A DNA stretch of 22,369 nt from the NCBI GenBank assembly GCA_945878065.1, contig CAMDXA010000031.1:1-22369 (forward strand), read 5' to 3'. A program made the translations under genes and the position numbers. This DNA is from Bordetella parapertussis. GTDB taxonomy: Bacteria > Pseudomonadota > Gammaproteobacteria > Burkholderiales > Burkholderiaceae_C. The notes under the pieces are model-generated. The model made no database searches. It saw nothing but the letters and a program-made list of their open reading frames with translations, and was not told the DNA's origin. Shown here piece by piece: positions 1,801 through 12,859 of this stretch. The stretch's first letter is position 1. Each line of letters opens with the position of its first letter.

Positions 1801-2703
1801 TTATTCACTGAACAATTCCACCAACTGCTGGCGCATCCACACATTGGCGGGCTCGCGGTTGTATTTGGCATGCCAAAACAAATTGATTGCAATTTCAGGC
1901 AATTTGAATGGCAGAGGGGACGTTTCCAACTGAAAAGGCTGCTTGCATTTTTGTGCAAACCGCTCAGGCACGGTGGCGATCAAATCCGAACTGTGCAAAA
2001 TATGACCAACAGCCACAAAATGTGGAACGTGCAATTGAATGGGCCGGTGTATGTTTTTTTTCTCCAACCATTCGCTGAGTTCCCCGTGCCCGGTATTTGC
2101 CGACATGATGCCCACATGGGGCAGTGATTTGTATTGCGCCAAGGTAATCGGGTTGCTGGCTGCAGGGTGTCCTTGTCTAAACATGCACACATAGCGCTGT
2201 TTGAACAATCTCCGCTGAAAAAAACCTGTGGTCAGACTTGGCAGCAAGCCTATGGCCAAGTCCACTTCGCCTGCTGCCATGTCGTCACTCAGGTGACCGC
2301 TCTGGTGTCTGAGGGTGCTGATTTTTATTGTGGGTGCCAAGCGTGAAAGCATCTCCATCAAGGTCGGCATGAAATAAATTTCACCAATGTCTGTGATGGC
2401 CAGGGTAAAAGTACGGTCGCTGGTGGCCGGATCAAAACTGTCTCGTTGGTTCAACGCGGTTTGCAGCATCCCCAAGGCGTAGCCCACAGGCTCGATCAGG
2501 TGCATGGCGTAAGGGGTAGGCTCCATGCCCCGAGACGTTCGCACAAACAAGTCATCTTTGAGAAAATCCCGCAATCGCTTAAGTGCATTGCTGACTGCAG
2601 GCTGTGACAAACCCAATTTATCTGCGCTGACAGACACGCTGCGATCCAGCAACAATTGATTGAACACCACCAGCAGATTGAGGTCTATTTTTCTGAGATC
2701 CAT
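1801..2703 (-). CDS. nagR: LysR-family regulator, NahR/NagR type, of the salicylate hydroxylase operon
   Basis: This is a 300-residue LysR regulator, the same length as NahR. The winged helix-turn-helix is at about residues 6-65 (IDLNLLVVFNQLLLDRS, then GLSQPAVSNALKRLR and LFVRTSRGMEPTPYA). The effector domain carries the NahR/NagR signature TFTLAITDIGEIYFMP near residue 100, then DLAIGLLPSL.TGFFQRRL, VPHFVAVGHIL and EIAINLFWHAKYN. These proteins bind salicylate-type inducers and activate the adjacent degradation operon. The frame extends to 2748, but the ATG at 2703 (MDLRKIDLNLL) matches the family start. It is transcribed away from the nag genes, and a perfect LysR box lies only 13 bp upstream of its start codon, which suggests self-repression together with activation of the divergent operon. 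The family call is very secure; the exact inducer is inferred from the neighbours. Confidence 0.9.
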   Translation of the reverse strand: MDLRKIDLNLLVVFNQLLLDRSVSVSADKLGLSQPAVSNALKRLRDFLKDDLFVRTSRGMEPTPYAMHLIEPVGYALGMLQTALNQRDSFDPATSDRTFTLAITDIGEIYFMPTLMEMLSRLAPTIKISTLRHQSGHLSDDMAAGEVDLAIGLLPSLTTGFFQRRLFKQRYVCMFRQGHPAASNPITLAQYKSLPHVGIMSANTGHGELSEWLEKKNIHRPIQLHVPHFVAVGHILHSSDLIATVPERFAQKCKQPFQLETSPLPFKLPEIAINLFWHAKYNREPANVWMRQQLVELFSE

Positions 2704-2730: not shown

Positions 2731-2807
2731 ACAGTCTATATGATCCAAAGGATTTACTTATAAGGTCTGGTTTCTGACAATGGACCCTATCGAGGATATT
2801 TTTTTAT

Positions 2808-2951
2808 ATGGAACTGCTGGTCACGCCCCAAAACTTGCGCTTGCAGATTCAAACCGGTCATAACCTGTACGTGGCGGCCGTGGCCACCAACATTTGTCAT
2901 CCCATGTTTGAAAAAATCCATGCCGATGCGTTTTATCCCTCGGGTATTTGA
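2808..2951 (+). pseudogene. nagAa: Internally deleted ferredoxin reductase gene (nagAa remnant), 47 codons
   Basis: The short frame begins MELLVTPQN, like the N-terminus of NagAa/NahAa-type ferredoxin reductases (MELL...), and ends KIHADAFYPSGI, like the C-terminus of the same proteins (..IYADAFYPGGI). The family is about 328 residues long, so roughly 280 residues are missing, including the four-cysteine [2Fe-2S] loop and the whole FAD and NAD domains. The join, near residues 20-33, leaves the frame open. In known nag operons nagAa directly precedes nagG, which is exactly where this remnant sits, 22 bp before nagG. It cannot be a working reductase. A weak GAGG lies about 12 bp before the ATG. 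The identification rests on both ends and the position; the middle residues (about 21-33) match nothing clearly. Confidence 0.75.
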
Positions 2952-2973
2952 CATTGAACCAAGGAGATGTGTC

Positions 2974-4233
2974 ATGACAACAACCAGTGTATTTCCCAAA
3001 GACCCGACCTGGGACGGCGAAGGTACCAGTCGTATTCCATTTTGGGCTTACACGCGTGACGATTTGTATAAAAAGGAACTGGACAAATTTTTTTACAACG
3101 GGCACTGGTGTTATGTGGGCTTAGAGGCTGAGATTCCCAACCCGGGTGATTTTCGTCGCACGGTGGTCGGTGAACGCTCGGTGATCATGGTTCGAGATCC
3201 AGACGGTGGCATCAATGTGATCGAAAACGTGTGTGCCCACCGTGGCATGCGTTTTTGTCGCGAACGACACGGCAACGCCAAAGATTTTTTCTGTCCCTAT
3301 CACCAGTGGAATTACAGCGTCAAGGGCGATTTGCAAGGCGTACCTTTTCGGCGCGGCGTCAAGCAAGACGGAAAGATCAATGGCGGCATGCCCAAAGACT
3401 TCAAGGTAGAAGAGCATGGTTTGACCAAACTCAAAGTGGCAACGCGAGGTGGGGTGGTGTTCGCTTCTTTTGACCATGACATTGAGCCATTGGAAGCATT
3501 TTTAGGGCCAACCATATTGGCTTACTTTGACCGCACATTCAATGGACGACCACTCAAGGTGTTGGGATATCGACGCCAAAGAATTCCCGGTAACTGGAAG
3601 TTGATGCAAGAAAATATCAAAGATCCTTACCACCCGGGTCTTTTACATACTTGGTTTTCTACCTTTGGTCTTTGGCGTGCTGACAATAAATCAGAATTGA
3701 AAATGGATGCCCACTTTCGCCATGCCGCCATGATTTCTACCCGAGGGCAGGGTGGGAACAATGAAGACGTGGTGAGCGGTGTGGACAGCTACAAAGAAAA
3801 AATGACGCTCAACGACATGCGCTTATTGGACATCGTCCCCGAGGCATGGTGGGCGGGTCCAACCGCTGTGATGACCACCATATTCCCCAGTTTGATCATT
3901 CAGCAACAAGTCAACAGCGTATCCACTCGCCACATTCAGCCCAATGGACATGGCTCGTTTGATTTTGTCTGGACACATTTTGGTTTTTCAGACGATACCC
4001 CTGAGATGGAGCAACGCCGTTTGATACAGGCCAATTTATTTGGTCCCGCAGGATTTGTATCTGCAGACGATGGTGAAGTGATTGAATGGTCTCAACAAGG
4101 GTTTGAACAAAAACCCTCGCACCGCACTGTGGTTGAAATGGGTGGACATGAAGTGGGCGACACAGACCATATGGTTACTGAAACATTGATTCGCGGGATG
4201 TACAAATATTGGCGTCAGGTGATGGGAGAGTGA
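2974..4233 (+). CDS. nagG: Salicylate 5-hydroxylase, large (alpha) oxygenase subunit
   Basis: This is the catalytic alpha subunit of a Rieske non-haem iron oxygenase that would convert salicylate to gentisate. It has 419 residues, against about 423 in NagG. The Rieske centre is CAHR (C87, H89) with CPYH (C107, H110). The mononuclear iron site shows in [20 protein letters not shown]217 as the bridging aspartate and H220 and H225 as ligands, with the carboxylate ligand probably in SADDGE (D365/D366). Long stretches agree with NagG of naphthalene/salicylate degraders as I remember it, which favours salicylate over other benzoates. The start is set by AAGGAG at 2961-2966 before the ATG at 2974; the frame is open further upstream but overlaps the nagAa remnant. 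It overlaps nothing downstream and is two bases from nagH. No key residue is missing. Confidence 0.92.
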
Positions 4234-4235
4234 GC

Positions 4236-4715
4236 ATGATGGATTTCAAAACCTATTTCGAACTCTTAAACTTCTACAGTGATTACGCCATGGTGTGTGA
4301 TTCTGAGGAATGGGAAAAATGGCCAGACTTCTTTTTAGAAGATGGCACATACCGACTGCAACCTCGGGAGAATTTTGAACAAGGTCTGCCTTTGTGCTTG
4401 CTTGCCTTAGAGAGTCGCGCCATGATCAAAGACAGGGTGTATGGCGTGAAAGAAACCCTTTATCACGATCCCTACTACCAACGCCATATTGTGGGCACCC
4501 CCAGGGTTCTTTCGGTTGCAGACGACGCTAGCCGCATTCATTCAGAAGCCAACTACACCGTTATTCGCACCAAATTCGATGGCGATTCGACCATTTTGTC
4601 TGTTGGTTTTTACCGCGATCATATTGTTCGCACCAGTGAAGGCTTGAAATTCCAATCGCGTTTGTGCGTCTATGACAGCGAAATGATTGCCAACTCCATC
4701 ATCTATCCCATTTAA
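4236..4715 (+). CDS. nagH: Salicylate 5-hydroxylase, small (beta) oxygenase subunit
   Basis: This is the beta subunit of the oxygenase, an NTF2-like cone-shaped protein that supports the alpha3beta3 hexamer and has no cofactor. The product is 159 residues, close to the 161 of NagH. Recognisable pieces are [40 protein letters not shown] near the N-terminus, [24 protein letters not shown] in the middle, and [19 protein letters not shown] at the end, typical of Rieske dioxygenase small subunits. The start at 4236 follows GGGAGAG at 4224-4230; a second ATG at 4239 is possible. It begins two bases after the nagG stop and ends ten bases before nagAb, so it is translationally linked to both. Confidence 0.9.
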
Positions 4716-4725
4716 GGAAATGCAT

Positions 4726-5037
4726 ATGACTGACTCATGGATTGACGTATTGGACGCAAGCGACATGCCGCAAGGCGACGTCACTGCAGTGATGGTAAAC
4801 GGCAATGAAATTGCACTTTACGAAGTAGATGGTGAAGTCTTTGCAACTGACAATCTGTGCACCCATGGTGCTGCCCGTATGAGCGATGGTTTTTTGGAAG
4901 GACACGAAATTGAATGTCCTTTTCACCAAGGCCGCTTCGATGTGTGCACAGGCAAAGCCTTGTGTGCGCCATTGACCAAAAACATCCGCACTTATCCGGT
5001 ACGTATAGACCAATCAAGAATATGGGTAAAGTTATGA
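4726..5037 (+). CDS. nagAb: Rieske-type [2Fe-2S] ferredoxin of the hydroxylase
   Basis: This is the electron carrier that delivers electrons to the NagG Rieske centre. The product is 103 residues, the usual size for NagAb/NahAb. The Rieske ligands are CTHG (C45, H47) and CPFH (C64, H67), with the standard hydrophobic and Gly/Asp pattern between them and a C-terminal strand [14 protein letters not shown]. The ATG at 4726 follows AAGGA at 4714-4718 by seven bases and is preferred over the ATG at 4720. The last four bases (ATGA) overlap the start of the gentisate dioxygenase gene. Its usual partner, the NagAa reductase, is only a remnant in this window, so its electron source must be encoded elsewhere or be a general reductase. 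Confidence 0.9.
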
Positions 5038-6074
5038 CACAAGAGCTCGGTCGATTAGAAGATTTACCTGTTGACTATGTTCAAGATTTACGGGATTTGA
5101 ACTTGGTACCCTTGTGGCCCAGTTTGCGCGGTGTGTTGCCGCCGCATATTCCAACTCGCCAAACACGTCCCATCCATTGGCCTTATCTGTCAATCAAAGC
5201 CTTGCTTCTTAAAGCAGGTGAACTGACGCCGATTGAAAAAGCTGAACGCCGTGTGCTGGTGCTGGCCAATCCGGGTCACGGTTTGGACAAGATGCAGGCC
5301 AGTTCGGCCATGTACCTGGGCATGCAGTTGCTACTGCCGGGCGAAAGGGCGCCCAGTCACCGGCATACCCCAAATGCAGTGCGGATGATTGTGGAAGGCG
5401 AAGGCGCATACACCACGGTGGACGGTGAAAAATGCCCGATGCACAGAGGTGATTTGATACTGACACCCACAGGCTTATGGCATGAGCATGGCCATGATGG
5501 GACCGATCCTGTTATTTGGTTAGATGTATTGGACCTTCCGTTGGTCTATTACATGGAGACCTCTTACCACGTCAATGGCGAGCCGCAAAAGGTGGTCAAT
5601 GGGCGAGGAGACAAGCAGTATGCGCATGGAGGAGTCGTGCCCACAAAAGTGTTTGAGCGCAGCACAAAGGCATACCCGATGTTGCGTTACGCATGGGCAG
5701 ATGCAAAAGCTGCGTTGCAAGCCTTGGCAGTGGATGATCCCGCTGTCGAACAGGTTCAAGTCACTTACACCAACCCTGAAACTGGCAGTGATGCAGAAAA
5801 TATCTTGGGGTTTTATGCGCTGATGTTGCGCCCAGGCCAGTCGCTTCGGTTGCCTGCCCGTTCACCTGCCCAAGTGTTTCATGTGATTGAAGGTGAGGTG
5901 CAAGCGCAGATCGTCAACAACCTATTTCATTTGCTTGAAGCGGATACCTGCTGCGCCCCGGGCTATGAAGCAGTGACTTTGGTCAATCTGCATTCACAGC
6001 AGCCAGCTTTTTTATTCATGGCCGACGAGTCCCCGTTGCACCGAAAACTCGGTGTGTACGAGAACCGCGGTTGA
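5034..6074 (+). CDS. nagI: Gentisate 1,2-dioxygenase (bicupin)
   Basis: This enzyme cleaves gentisate between C1 and C2 to maleylpyruvate. It has 346 residues, normal for the family, with two cupin domains (about 90-170 and 255-330). The N-terminal cupin shows the iron-binding motif [17 protein letters not shown] with H109 and H111, and the third histidine is probably H150 in LWHEHG. The DLTPL-like region LNLVPLWP and the segment [17 protein letters not shown] are typical of gentisate and salicylate dioxygenases. I chose the ATG at 5034, which overlaps the nagAb stop by ATGA; an ATG at 5022 is possible. Its place after a salicylate 5-hydroxylase makes gentisate the likely substrate, although a salicylate 1,2-dioxygenase activity is known in this family. 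Genes for the next two steps are not in the window. Confidence 0.88.
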
Positions 6075-6108
6075 ATCCATTTTTATTCCCGGCACCTTAT
6101 TGACTGGA

Positions 6109-7038
6109 TCAATGTTGAAGATGTGTTGTCAAGCATGTCTGTAATTGCGCAACGGCTTGAGACACATCGGTTGCTGCGGTGATGGCCCGAACGAATGCCG
6201 CAGAGCCGACGCCCGTTTGCATGACCGCTGGCAAGCGTTCAATATCGATACCGCCTATGGCGACCAGCGAGCGCCCGTGCATCAACCTGGCATACATGGC
6301 AAGCCGTCCTAATCCTTGCGGGGCAGTGGCCATGCGTTTGAGTGTGGTGGGAAAAACCGCACCCAGCGCCAAATAGCTGGGTTGAACCGCACAGGCTTTT
6401 AGCATTTCGGCATAGCCGTGCGAACTGAGTCCAAGGCGCAGACCCGCTGAGCGAATGGCGTCAAGCGAGGCCAGTTCCATGTCCTCTTGACCCAAATGCA
6501 CACCATAGGCGCCAGCGTCTATGGCGACTTGCCAATGGTCATTGATGAACAAATGGGTATGGCTTCCTTCAACAGCTTTCACAGCGGCCAGTACTTCTTG
6601 CTGAATCGATTTGGTGTTGTCCGACTTGAACCGTAACTGCACGGTAGGTACACCTAAATCCACCATGCGTGCCACCCATTGCGCGTCAGGCAGTACCGCG
6701 TACAAGCCCAGAGAAGCAGGGCAGGGCGCAAACGCGTTGCTTGCTGAAGTTGGTGACAAAGAGAAATCTTGCGCTTCACAAGGCCAGCATGTGGCATCAA
6801 AATTTCCAGTGCGTTGGGTTTGTGCTTGCCACGCGTGTGCGATGCAGTCTGCGTCTTGCGGTACAAAACCCAGCAATCTTGCGCCATACCAAACGGCTTC
6901 GAAAGGCGTTTCTTTTAACGTTGTGGGAACAGCATGCGGCAACGATTCCCAGTTCGCCTGTTCAGCGGCTTGTAAATTTTTGAACCGCTCGGCCAAAGCC
7001 GTTGCCAAGAGGTGTTTGTCCGTTGAAAGTGTGTTCAT
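6109..7038 (-). CDS. thiE: Thiamine-phosphate synthase with N-terminal extension
   Basis: ThiE joins HMP-pyrophosphate and thiazole phosphate to thiamine monophosphate. The TIM-barrel part occupies about residues 110-300: LYAVLPD, VPTVQLRFK, LFINDHWQVAIDAGAYGVHLGQED, GLSSHGYAEM, YLALGAVFPTTLK and SLVAIGGIDIERLP. Before it lie about 105 residues that are not part of the barrel, including FEAVWYGARLLGF, DADCIAHAWQAQTQRTGNF and a CWPCE pair of cysteines. I recall similar extensions in other betaproteobacterial ThiE proteins; their role is unknown to me. The ATG at 7038 overlaps the thiG stop (ATGA), and no other start fits, because the frame further upstream lies inside thiG. It is the last gene of thiO-thiS-thiG-thiE and converges with the gentisate dioxygenase gene, 34 bp away. 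Confidence 0.87.
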   Translation of the reverse strand: MNTLSTDKHLLATALAERFKNLQAAEQANWESLPHAVPTTLKETPFEAVWYGARLLGFVPQDADCIAHAWQAQTQRTGNFDATCWPCEAQDFSLSPTSASNAFAPCPASLGLYAVLPDAQWVARMVDLGVPTVQLRFKSDNTKSIQQEVLAAVKAVEGSHTHLFINDHWQVAIDAGAYGVHLGQEDMELASLDAIRSAGLRLGLSSHGYAEMLKACAVQPSYLALGAVFPTTLKRMATAPQGLGRLAMYARLMHGRSLVAIGGIDIERLPAVMQTGVGSAAFVRAITAATDVSQAVAQLQTCLTTHLQH

Positions 7039-11466: not shown

Positions 11467-12507
11467 TCAAACCCCCAGCAGACGGTGTAACCGGGGAGAT
11501 GCCGTGGTGTATTCGAGCGCCACTTTTTGTTCGGGACGCAGAAACGCGGCGGCACCGAATGCGGCCAGCGTGGCCTCATGGAATCCGCTGACGATGAGTT
11601 TGCGTTTGCCCGGGTAGGTATTGATGTCTCCAACGGCGAATATGCCAGTCGCGCTGGTGCTGAAATTTTCTGTGTTGACAGCCAACTGTTTGCGCGACAT
11701 GTCCAGACCCCAATCTGCCAGCGGACCGAGTTGCGGGGAGAGGCCGAGCATCACCCGCAGTTGATCGCAAGCCAAGGTGCGAGAGCTGCCATCCATCAGG
11801 TTAATTTGCAAACCATTCAGGTGCTGGTCCTTGATCTGGGCTTGAGCAATGTGTGCGGTGATGAATACCATGTGTTTAGCGGCAACCGCTTGTTGCAATC
11901 TTTGTTGTAATTCAGGGGAAATATCCAGTGTGCTGCGACGGTGCAGCAATGTCACGCTGGCTGGCGAATGGGACAAAGCCAGAAGCGCGGCTTGAACAGC
12001 CGTATCGTCACCACCTACCACCACCAGGTGTTGACCCGTGGCCAATGCTGCATCTTCCGCTGAGTAAAAAACTTGCTTGCCATCCAATGGCTGCAATTCA
12101 GGCAGCGGCAGCATGCGCGGCACAAACGCACCTACCCCTGCGGCGATGAACACTGTCTTTGCCAAAAATTGCAGGCCGTGGTTGGTCGTGGCCAGCCAAC
12201 GACCGTCGGGTTGGGCTTGCATGCCGGCTATGCGTTGTTTGAAATGAAACCCGGCTTTGAAAGGCGCGATCTGTTTCAGCAAGCGTTGTGTCAAATCACG
12301 GCCGGTACTGGCAGGCAGGCCAGGTATATCGTAGATAGGCTTATCTGGGTACAGGGCCATGCATTGGCCGCCAGCTTCAGGCAGGACATCCACCACCTGC
12401 GCATGGATTTCTTGTAAACCCAATTCAAAGATTTGAAACAAGCCCACCGGACCTGCACCGATGACCAGTGCATCGGTAGTCATGTGGGTGGCGGTGTCAG
12501 TGCTCAT
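11467..12507 (-). CDS. Ferredoxin-NADP+ reductase, thioredoxin-reductase-like type
   Basis: This flavoprotein of 346 residues has the two-dinucleotide-domain layout of thioredoxin reductases. The FAD motif GAGPVG is at 17-22, LPEAGGQCMALYPDKPIYDIPG follows, the NADPH motif GGDDTA is at 165-170 with LLHRRSTL after it, and the C-terminal FAD contact is AVGDINTYPGKRKLIVSGFHEA. It lacks the CxxC redox pair of thioredoxin reductase, as do the ferredoxin-NADP+ reductases of Bacillus YumC and Chlorobium type, so it should pass electrons between NADPH and ferredoxin. It lies 25 bp downstream of fdxA in the same direction, so that ferredoxin is the obvious partner. No Shine-Dalgarno is visible before 12507; an ATG at 12483 is an alternative start. 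It could serve the sulfite reductase of the cys operon. Confidence 0.85.
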   Translation of the reverse strand: MSTDTATHMTTDALVIGAGPVGLFQIFELGLQEIHAQVVDVLPEAGGQCMALYPDKPIYDIPGLPASTGRDLTQRLLKQIAPFKAGFHFKQRIAGMQAQPDGRWLATTNHGLQFLAKTVFIAAGVGAFVPRMLPLPELQPLDGKQVFYSAEDAALATGQHLVVVGGDDTAVQAALLALSHSPASVTLLHRRSTLDISPELQQRLQQAVAAKHMVFITAHIAQAQIKDQHLNGLQINLMDGSSRTLACDQLRVMLGLSPQLGPLADWGLDMSRKQLAVNTENFSTSATGIFAVGDINTYPGKRKLIVSGFHEATLAAFGAAAFLRPEQKVALEYTTASPRLHRLLGV

Positions 12508-12532
12508 GGCGCATAGGCCCCGCCCGACACAA

Positions 12533-12859
12533 TCAGCGGGCTAGCTCGGAGAGCTTGCCGGTCTTGTCTTTCCAGTCATCGGCGTCCGCCAAAGGGGTTT
12601 TGCGTTTGGTGATGCTGGGCCAGCCGATGCGGGCCAGTTCCACATTCAAAGCAACCATGTGTTGCTGATCGGCGGGTACATCTTCTTCAGCATAAATCGC
12701 GTTGACCGGGCATTCTGGAATGCAGACCGCGCAGTCGATGCATTCGTCCGGATCAATGGTTAAAAAATTCGGGCCTTCGCGGAAACAATCGACGGGACAG
12801 ACGTCCACGCAGTCGGTGTATTTGCAACGGATACAGGCTTCGGTAACAACGTGGGTCAT
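12533..12859 (-). CDS. fdxA: 7Fe ferredoxin FdxA ([3Fe-4S][4Fe-4S])
   Basis: The 108-residue protein matches the FdxA family of Azotobacter ferredoxin I. Cysteines C9, C17 and C50 would hold the [3Fe-4S] cluster and C21, C40, C43 and C46 the [4Fe-4S] cluster. The C-terminal tail about residues 60-108, with [19 protein letters not shown], is also characteristic. It is a small soluble electron carrier. It starts 68 bp after the cysN stop and is followed after 25 bp by a ferredoxin reductase gene on the same strand, so the three may be co-transcribed. A TAAAAT-like -10 at 12913-12908 might give it its own promoter, but that is weak evidence. Confidence 0.92.

Follow-up and report, generated by a model that had tools for sequence, protein, structure and literature searches.

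NagAb, a Rieske ferredoxin, normally receives its electrons from NagAa, an NADH-dependent reductase. For the salicylate 5-hydroxylase of Ralstonia sp. U2, NagAaGHAb, the source is a table entry (PMC2358900), and in most strains of Ralstonia solanacearum described in the relevant excerpt of PMC4916378 the full gene set, nagAaGHAbIKL, lies in one locus. Another arrangement is found in the sphingomonads, where the electron-transport genes of the ring-hydroxylating oxygenases, according to the parts of two papers that treat them, are shared and unlinked (PMC2358900, PMC1847435).

The window, by which we mean the whole stretch of DNA that was analysed (22,369 nt), holds an operon that is like the one of Ralstonia sp. 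U2 (L016), with lysR upstream and the order nagG-nagH-nagAb. The identity to that locus is 88% for nagG, 81% for nagH and 71-72% for nagAb, and the oxygenase subunits are of the NagG/NagH type. Ralstonia sp. U2 has however a full nagAa before nagG, where the window has a relic. As in the R. solanacearum locus, the genes of the window point to salicylate degradation via the gentisate pathway, but unlike that locus, as the excerpt describes it, the window lacks nagAa, nagK and nagL beside nagI. In having no reductase gene beside the oxygenase genes, and probably one reductase that serves from elsewhere, it resembles the sphingomonad oxygenases, with the difference that sharing is the state described in those parts of the papers, whereas here a resident reductase has repeatedly been lost and the ferredoxin gene has stayed and changed. 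Unlinked reductases are known from these excerpts, and the repeated loss of a resident reductase with matching changes in the ferredoxin was not found in the open-access literature, nor was any reductase-less salicylate 5-hydroxylase or a ferredoxin partner exchange of such kind. The reductase gene is a relic, and we believe, with a probability of roughly two in three, that NagAb is reduced by a reductase encoded elsewhere, that the hydroxylase persists, and that the cluster face of NagAb has changed with the partner.

The relic and its operon

Window 2808-2951 (+) translates to MELLVTPQNLRLQIQTGHNLYVAAVATNICHPMFEKIHADAFYPSGI*, i.e. 47 codons and a stop, which occupy the nagAa position between an intact lysR, which starts at 2703 (-), and the nagG start at 2974 (Table 1), as was claimed in an earlier note on this DNA. 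That note also took both ends of the frame to be those of NagAa and called for an alignment, and for this we used G037 (NagG 97% identical), which among the relatives found is the closest that has kept nagAa intact. Window 2802-2866 is identical to the start of its nagAa in 56/65 nt and window 2906-3003, which covers the tail, the spacer and the nagG start, in 91/98 nt. This identity makes both ends NagAa, beyond chance, and the operon spacing has been kept along with them, just as had been proposed.

Table 1. Features of the nag operon in the window
Feature	Position	Strand	Basis
lysR-type regulator, divergent from the nag operon	1801..2703	-	PF00126, PF03466; ATG at 2703
Shine-Dalgarno-like GAGGA before the relic (putative)	2792..2796	+	sequence reading
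nagAa relic, 47 codons + stop	2808..2951	+	G037 alignment; P0002/P0003 relatives
Relic island 1: NagAa residues 1-20	2808..2867	+	alignment with G037
Relic island 2 (13 codons), in which NagAa residues 219-228 most likely lie	2868..2906	+	P0003-spelling alignment
Relic island 3: NagAa residues 315-328 + stop	2907..2951	+	alignment with G037
Shine-Dalgarno-like AAGGAG before nagG (putative)	2961..2966	+	sequence reading
nagG, oxygenase large subunit	2974..4233	+	PF00355, PF00848; open frame
nagH, oxygenase small subunit	4236..4715	+	PF00866
nagAb, Rieske ferredoxin, Phe at residue 66	4726..5037	+	PF00355
nagI, gentisate 1,2-dioxygenase-like	5034..6074	+	TIGR02272 best NCBIfam match, below cut-off; cupin PF07883
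Site of the nagK-like gene (234 aa) of G037, missing in the window	6075..6114	.	comparison with G037

The proposed search for the relic elsewhere was made among about 5.8 billion predicted proteins and found it in two further clusters, P0002 (47 aa, 94%, 2 members) and P0003 (56 aa, 94%, 52 members), which have the same three-part build and each its own substitutions. Judged from the alignments, the relic is most likely composed of three islands of 20, 13 and 14 codons, the middle one being less certain. In the spelling of P0003, island 2 aligns to NagAa residues 219-228 in eight of the nine intact NagAa of the genus, with a shuffle p of 0.002 for G037 and between 0.009 and 0.31 for the remaining seven; in the ninth (G068) it aligns elsewhere (p 0.32), and with the window's own DNA p is below 0.05 for one of the nine only (G037, 0.009). 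Three islands imply at least two deletions, with the net frame open, and the single in-frame deletion that had been suggested was not borne out, as a third island is probable between the two ends. The loss of the cofactor domains was correctly noticed: the 47-mer matches no family in Pfam, and its two hits in NCBIfam are both at chance level. The operon of the window encodes no reductase NagAa with [2Fe-2S], FAD and NAD domains and has the relic only, and since the relic is without any cofactor domain it is not a reductase.

NagAb of the window (103 aa) matches PF00355 and retains the cluster ligands in the alignment, which identifies it as a Rieske ferredoxin, and between 813 and 8275 the window runs collinear with the stretch fetched from G037. 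A nagK-like gene (234 aa, L124:2198-2902) follows nagI in G037 and is absent from the window; it is found after nagI in G001, G003, G005, G008, G068 and G035 as well, and the stretches fetched from G002 and G006 showed none. The description of the cluster as undamaged thus holds for nagG, nagH and nagAb, which are open and of full length, but not for the nagK-like gene, which is missing in comparison with G037. The frame of nagI is open as well.

Losses of nagAa among the relatives

The genus was sampled with 84 genomes, in which 15 loci were comparable, that is, with nagG at least 88% identical and the nagAa position visible. At nine of these nagAa is intact (G037, G001, G021, G077, G004, G084, G003, G046 and G068), and the other six have a damaged nagAa or none: in G002 the gene shows an internal deletion and is spread over two frames, in G005 the first codons alone survive, G006 is without both nagAa and lysR, in G007 and G008 no nagAa is left, and G061 has unreadable debris. 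In a tree of nagG and nagH the sister of the window is G037 and that of G002 is G004, both with nagAa intact (support 100 for both), G005, G006 and G008 form one clade (support 100), and G007 and G061 group with intact G009 (support 85-87). From this topology follow at least five losses of nagAa, the window counted. The placement of G007 is not firm, and in a 77-locus protein tree it stands beside intact G046, where its loss is a separate one too. Outside the genus (L009 to L080), 11 of the 70 loci with a visible upstream region had no NagAa in the fetched stretch. The loss of nagAa is recurrent, and several relatives have lost it independently.

Some of these loci have peculiarities of their own. 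G069, which is visible at the nagG start only, and G005 (L123 and L005) have a common nagAa remnant of about 27 codons, the frame of which runs into the nagG start. In G061 (L125:3880-4260) nagAb is ruined and the cluster ligands are gone, and nagG and nagH are open. The bin G004 (L098, L228) holds two versions of nagG with 91% identity over 356 nt, which come from either a second strain or a mixed bin.

A close NagAa elsewhere in the genome was searched for in the relatives. The best full-length match was 28-30% in G005, G006, G007, G008, G061 and G088, and 39% in 11 genomes of other groups; G069 gave partial matches only, and G002, beside the broken copy it has itself, a match of 27%. Each single absence is weak because the assemblies are partly incomplete. 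These searches cover the relatives, and the organism of the window, of which 22,369 nt were read here, may have another NagAa. The closest candidate for a substitute in the related genomes is a conserved 345-aa protein with the build of NagAa and about 27-30% identity to it, present in 16 of 18 related genomes and not found in G069 and G004, both among the smallest assemblies. It is present in genomes with nagAa too and therefore proves nothing alone. A BphA4-type (GR-type) reductase was rejected as a substitute, as Reductase_C (PF14759) occurs in none of the 18 related genomes, while three of 14 control genomes were positive. In the window itself, a thioredoxin-reductase-like flavoprotein beside a ferredoxin gene (11467-12859, -) may be a candidate electron donor.

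Selection on the oxygenase and changes in NagAb

Branch codon models were fitted to nagG and nagH, with G061 excluded from the final tests because its branch was saturated. Omega was 0.042 in the background, 0.023 on the window branch and 0.054 on the inner branches of the G005/G006/G008 clade, with a 2dlnL against omega 1 of 49 for the window branch and 543 for the clade, and against the background of 2.3 and 2.9, respectively, neither of which is significant. The two oxygenase genes are under strong purifying selection. The clade gives the stronger result because nagAa is lacking in all its members; a late loss is possible on the window branch, which makes the omega of that branch less telling. 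For NagAb omega was 0.168 on the window branch compared with 0.056 (2dlnL 5.35), and not significantly different from 1 (2dlnL 3.3). On the other nagAa-less branches it was at the background, and a raised NagAb omega was therefore rejected as a general mark of nagAa loss, being seen on the window branch only.

The sequence of NagAb is nevertheless associated with the presence of nagAa. In the first set of loci, all 62 that bear nagAa have D18, A50, E61 and L66 in NagAb, and 13 of the 16 without nagAa differ at one or more of these residues, the exceptions being L002, L069 and L079. In the window it is Leu66 that has become Phe. The changes were counted on the 77-locus tree (62 taxa with and 15 without nagAa), where 21 NagAb sites are unchanged on nagAa-bearing branches; on the nagAa-less branches these sites have 11 changes, and four of them are hit recurrently. 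The same count gave 16 changes at 213 sites in NagG and 4 changes at 45 sites in NagH, none of them recurrent. Site 66 has changed in three separate lineages (the window, the G005/G006/G008 clade and L077), site 50 in two (L007; L033 and L034) and site 18 in two (L067; the clade of L033, L034, L037, L039 and L053), one of which has an additional change. At site 61 the two changes belong to a single clade. Left out of the count were L125 with a broken nagAb, L011 with a NagAb cut short, L018 and L032 with the nagAa position off the contig (the four sites are unchanged in both), L042 and L052 where no NagAb was found, L004, L044, L047 and L076 with NagAb off the contig, and L130, in which NagG is cut short and sites 61 and 66 are changed.

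As a matched null we used the 62 nagAa-bearing taxa only, with branch length matched and 4000 draws, each drawing on average 24 taxa to equal the branch length of the 15 nagAa-less ones. For NagAb, p was 0.01 for the 11 changes and 0.00075 for the four recurring sites, and the counts of changes showed no excess in NagG (p 0.37) or NagH (p 0.54). This null supersedes a first permutation (0/5000) that was too generous since the loss taxa remained in its background. A comparison per sequence carries no weight alone, as relatives are not independent and NagG and NagH were raised in it too (p 0.0045 and 0.026).

The four sites were discovered in the first set, and the loci fetched later were for that reason checked separately. 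All 15 later loci with nagAa are unchanged at the four sites; ten have a full NagAa adjacent (L165, L167, L170, L199, L202, L203, L207, L208, L213 and L214), in L204 NagAa is cut by the locus end, in L206, L217 and L218 the contig carries a NagAa of 55-58% some kb upstream, and G068 was read on its second contig, which overlaps the first by 32 identical bases. Five of the six later loci without nagAa are changed, namely L149 (D18C), L152 (D18S, L66M), L171 (D18A, L66F), L215 (L66H) and G035 (D18E, L66F), and L212 is unchanged at all four sites. Since L149, L152 and L215 are related to loci of the first set, the separate new cases are L171, G035 and L212. In G035, where the nagG start is off the contig, NagAa was judged absent from a search of the genome (best match 28%). 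Loci identical to earlier ones were not counted (L150, L151, L164, L166, L168, L194 to L198, L200, L201, L205, L209 to L211 and L216), nor were those without NagAb (L169, L172, L173 and L174), and L228 was dropped because its nagG piece is 91% identical to the other nagG of the bin, so that its nagAa state is not assignable. Of the 120 best relatives of the window's NagAb, 25 have Phe66 and one has Arg66. A NagAb with Phe66 that is near-identical to the window's is present in three further assemblies (P0004 to P0006). In P0007 the first part of NagAb equals that of the window and the end resembles that of G002, and it is either a recombinant or a chimeric assembly.

In the ferredoxin of Sphingobium yanoikuyae B1, Ala50 and Phe66 are described, in the part of PMC1847435 concerned, as outer-shell residues of the cluster, and Cys45, His47, Cys64 and His67 as its ligands; the ligands of the window's NagAb have the same numbers. 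In the ferredoxin of carbazole dioxygenase the equivalent Phe67 moves with the redox state and affects the binding to the oxygenase, and reductases are called moderately promiscuous in the same review, as far as its excerpt goes (PMC12445004). Residue 66 of NagAb could act on the docking of the reductase, on the docking of the oxygenase or on the redox potential.

Possible electron donors and the fate of the operon

At least two deletions would have reduced nagAa to a 47-codon leftover without reductase function, in an operon that by its predicted products still encodes the NagGH oxygenase, NagAb and a gentisate dioxygenase. Salicylate 5-hydroxylation is predicted to continue, most likely with NagAb reduced by an unlinked reductase, and the face of NagAb around the [2Fe-2S] cluster, which must meet the reductase, has changed in most lineages that lost NagAa. 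That NagAb changes near its iron-sulphur cluster upon the loss of nagAa suggests that the electrons now come from another reductase. The earlier note had offered reliance on another reductase as something that may be the case, and with the purifying selection on nagGH and the association in NagAb it has become the best-supported reading.

It is possible, at a chance that we put well short of even, that NagAb has merely been released, so that the four residues drift without NagAa and another reductase serves NagAb with no adaptation. The variety of residues at site 18 (C, S, E, Q and A) and at site 66 (F, H and M) would fit such a drift, as would an omega that is not raised outside the window branch, but NagAb is constrained overall, and Phe66 arises in the window, in the G005/G006/G008 clade, in L171 and in G035, and both facts speak against it.

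The main rival, because the window has no nagK-like gene, is decay, in which the reductase and nagK were lost first, the rest is open through recency only, the hydroxylase is inactive and NagAb unconstrained. The missing nagK-like gene, the higher omega of NagAb on the window branch, and G061 with nagAa and nagAb both in ruins and nagG and nagH still open, all speak for it. We consider it unlikely, as the omega of nagGH is low both on the window branch (0.023) and within the nagAa-less clade (0.054), NagAb is at background outside the window branch, and near-identical Phe66 ferredoxins exist in P0004 to P0006. Both lost functions, the reductase and nagK, are ones that might be provided by general enzymes, and their loss fits outsourcing and decay alike.

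A retained short frame, translated as a leader that aids the translation of nagG, had also been thought of, and indeed none of the three known versions of the relic has an interrupted frame, Shine-Dalgarno-like sequences precede both the relic and nagG, and the remnant frame of G005 reaches into the nagG start; this is nonetheless improbable, since nagG is still open also where the frame before it is gone (G007, G008) or broken (G002, G061), and 47 codons with few substitutions easily stay open by chance. That a full-length nagAa was collapsed in the assembly deserves hardly any credit, as the three-part peptide, with substitutions of its own, is predicted in other assemblies and the relatives show comparable losses.

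Reduction of NagAb by a reductase encoded elsewhere is consequently the reading we prefer, and a tentative extension of it, to which we would give not quite even chances, is that NagAa fixes residues 18, 50, 61 and 66 of NagAb, that these are rebuilt after its loss, repeatedly with Phe66, for a general reductase of the cell, and that such operons outsource replaceable parts (the reductase, nagK) and keep the specific ones.

To our knowledge, the choice of reductase by a Rieske ferredoxin is little resolved. Several independent natural losses, together with close kin that bear nagAa, point to four residues of the ferredoxin and one recurring substitution. If our reading is true, an operon without a reductase gene is not necessarily dead, and annotation gene by gene may miss working hydroxylases; under the tentative extension the natural losses of NagAa would map the reductase-recognition face of a Rieske ferredoxin.
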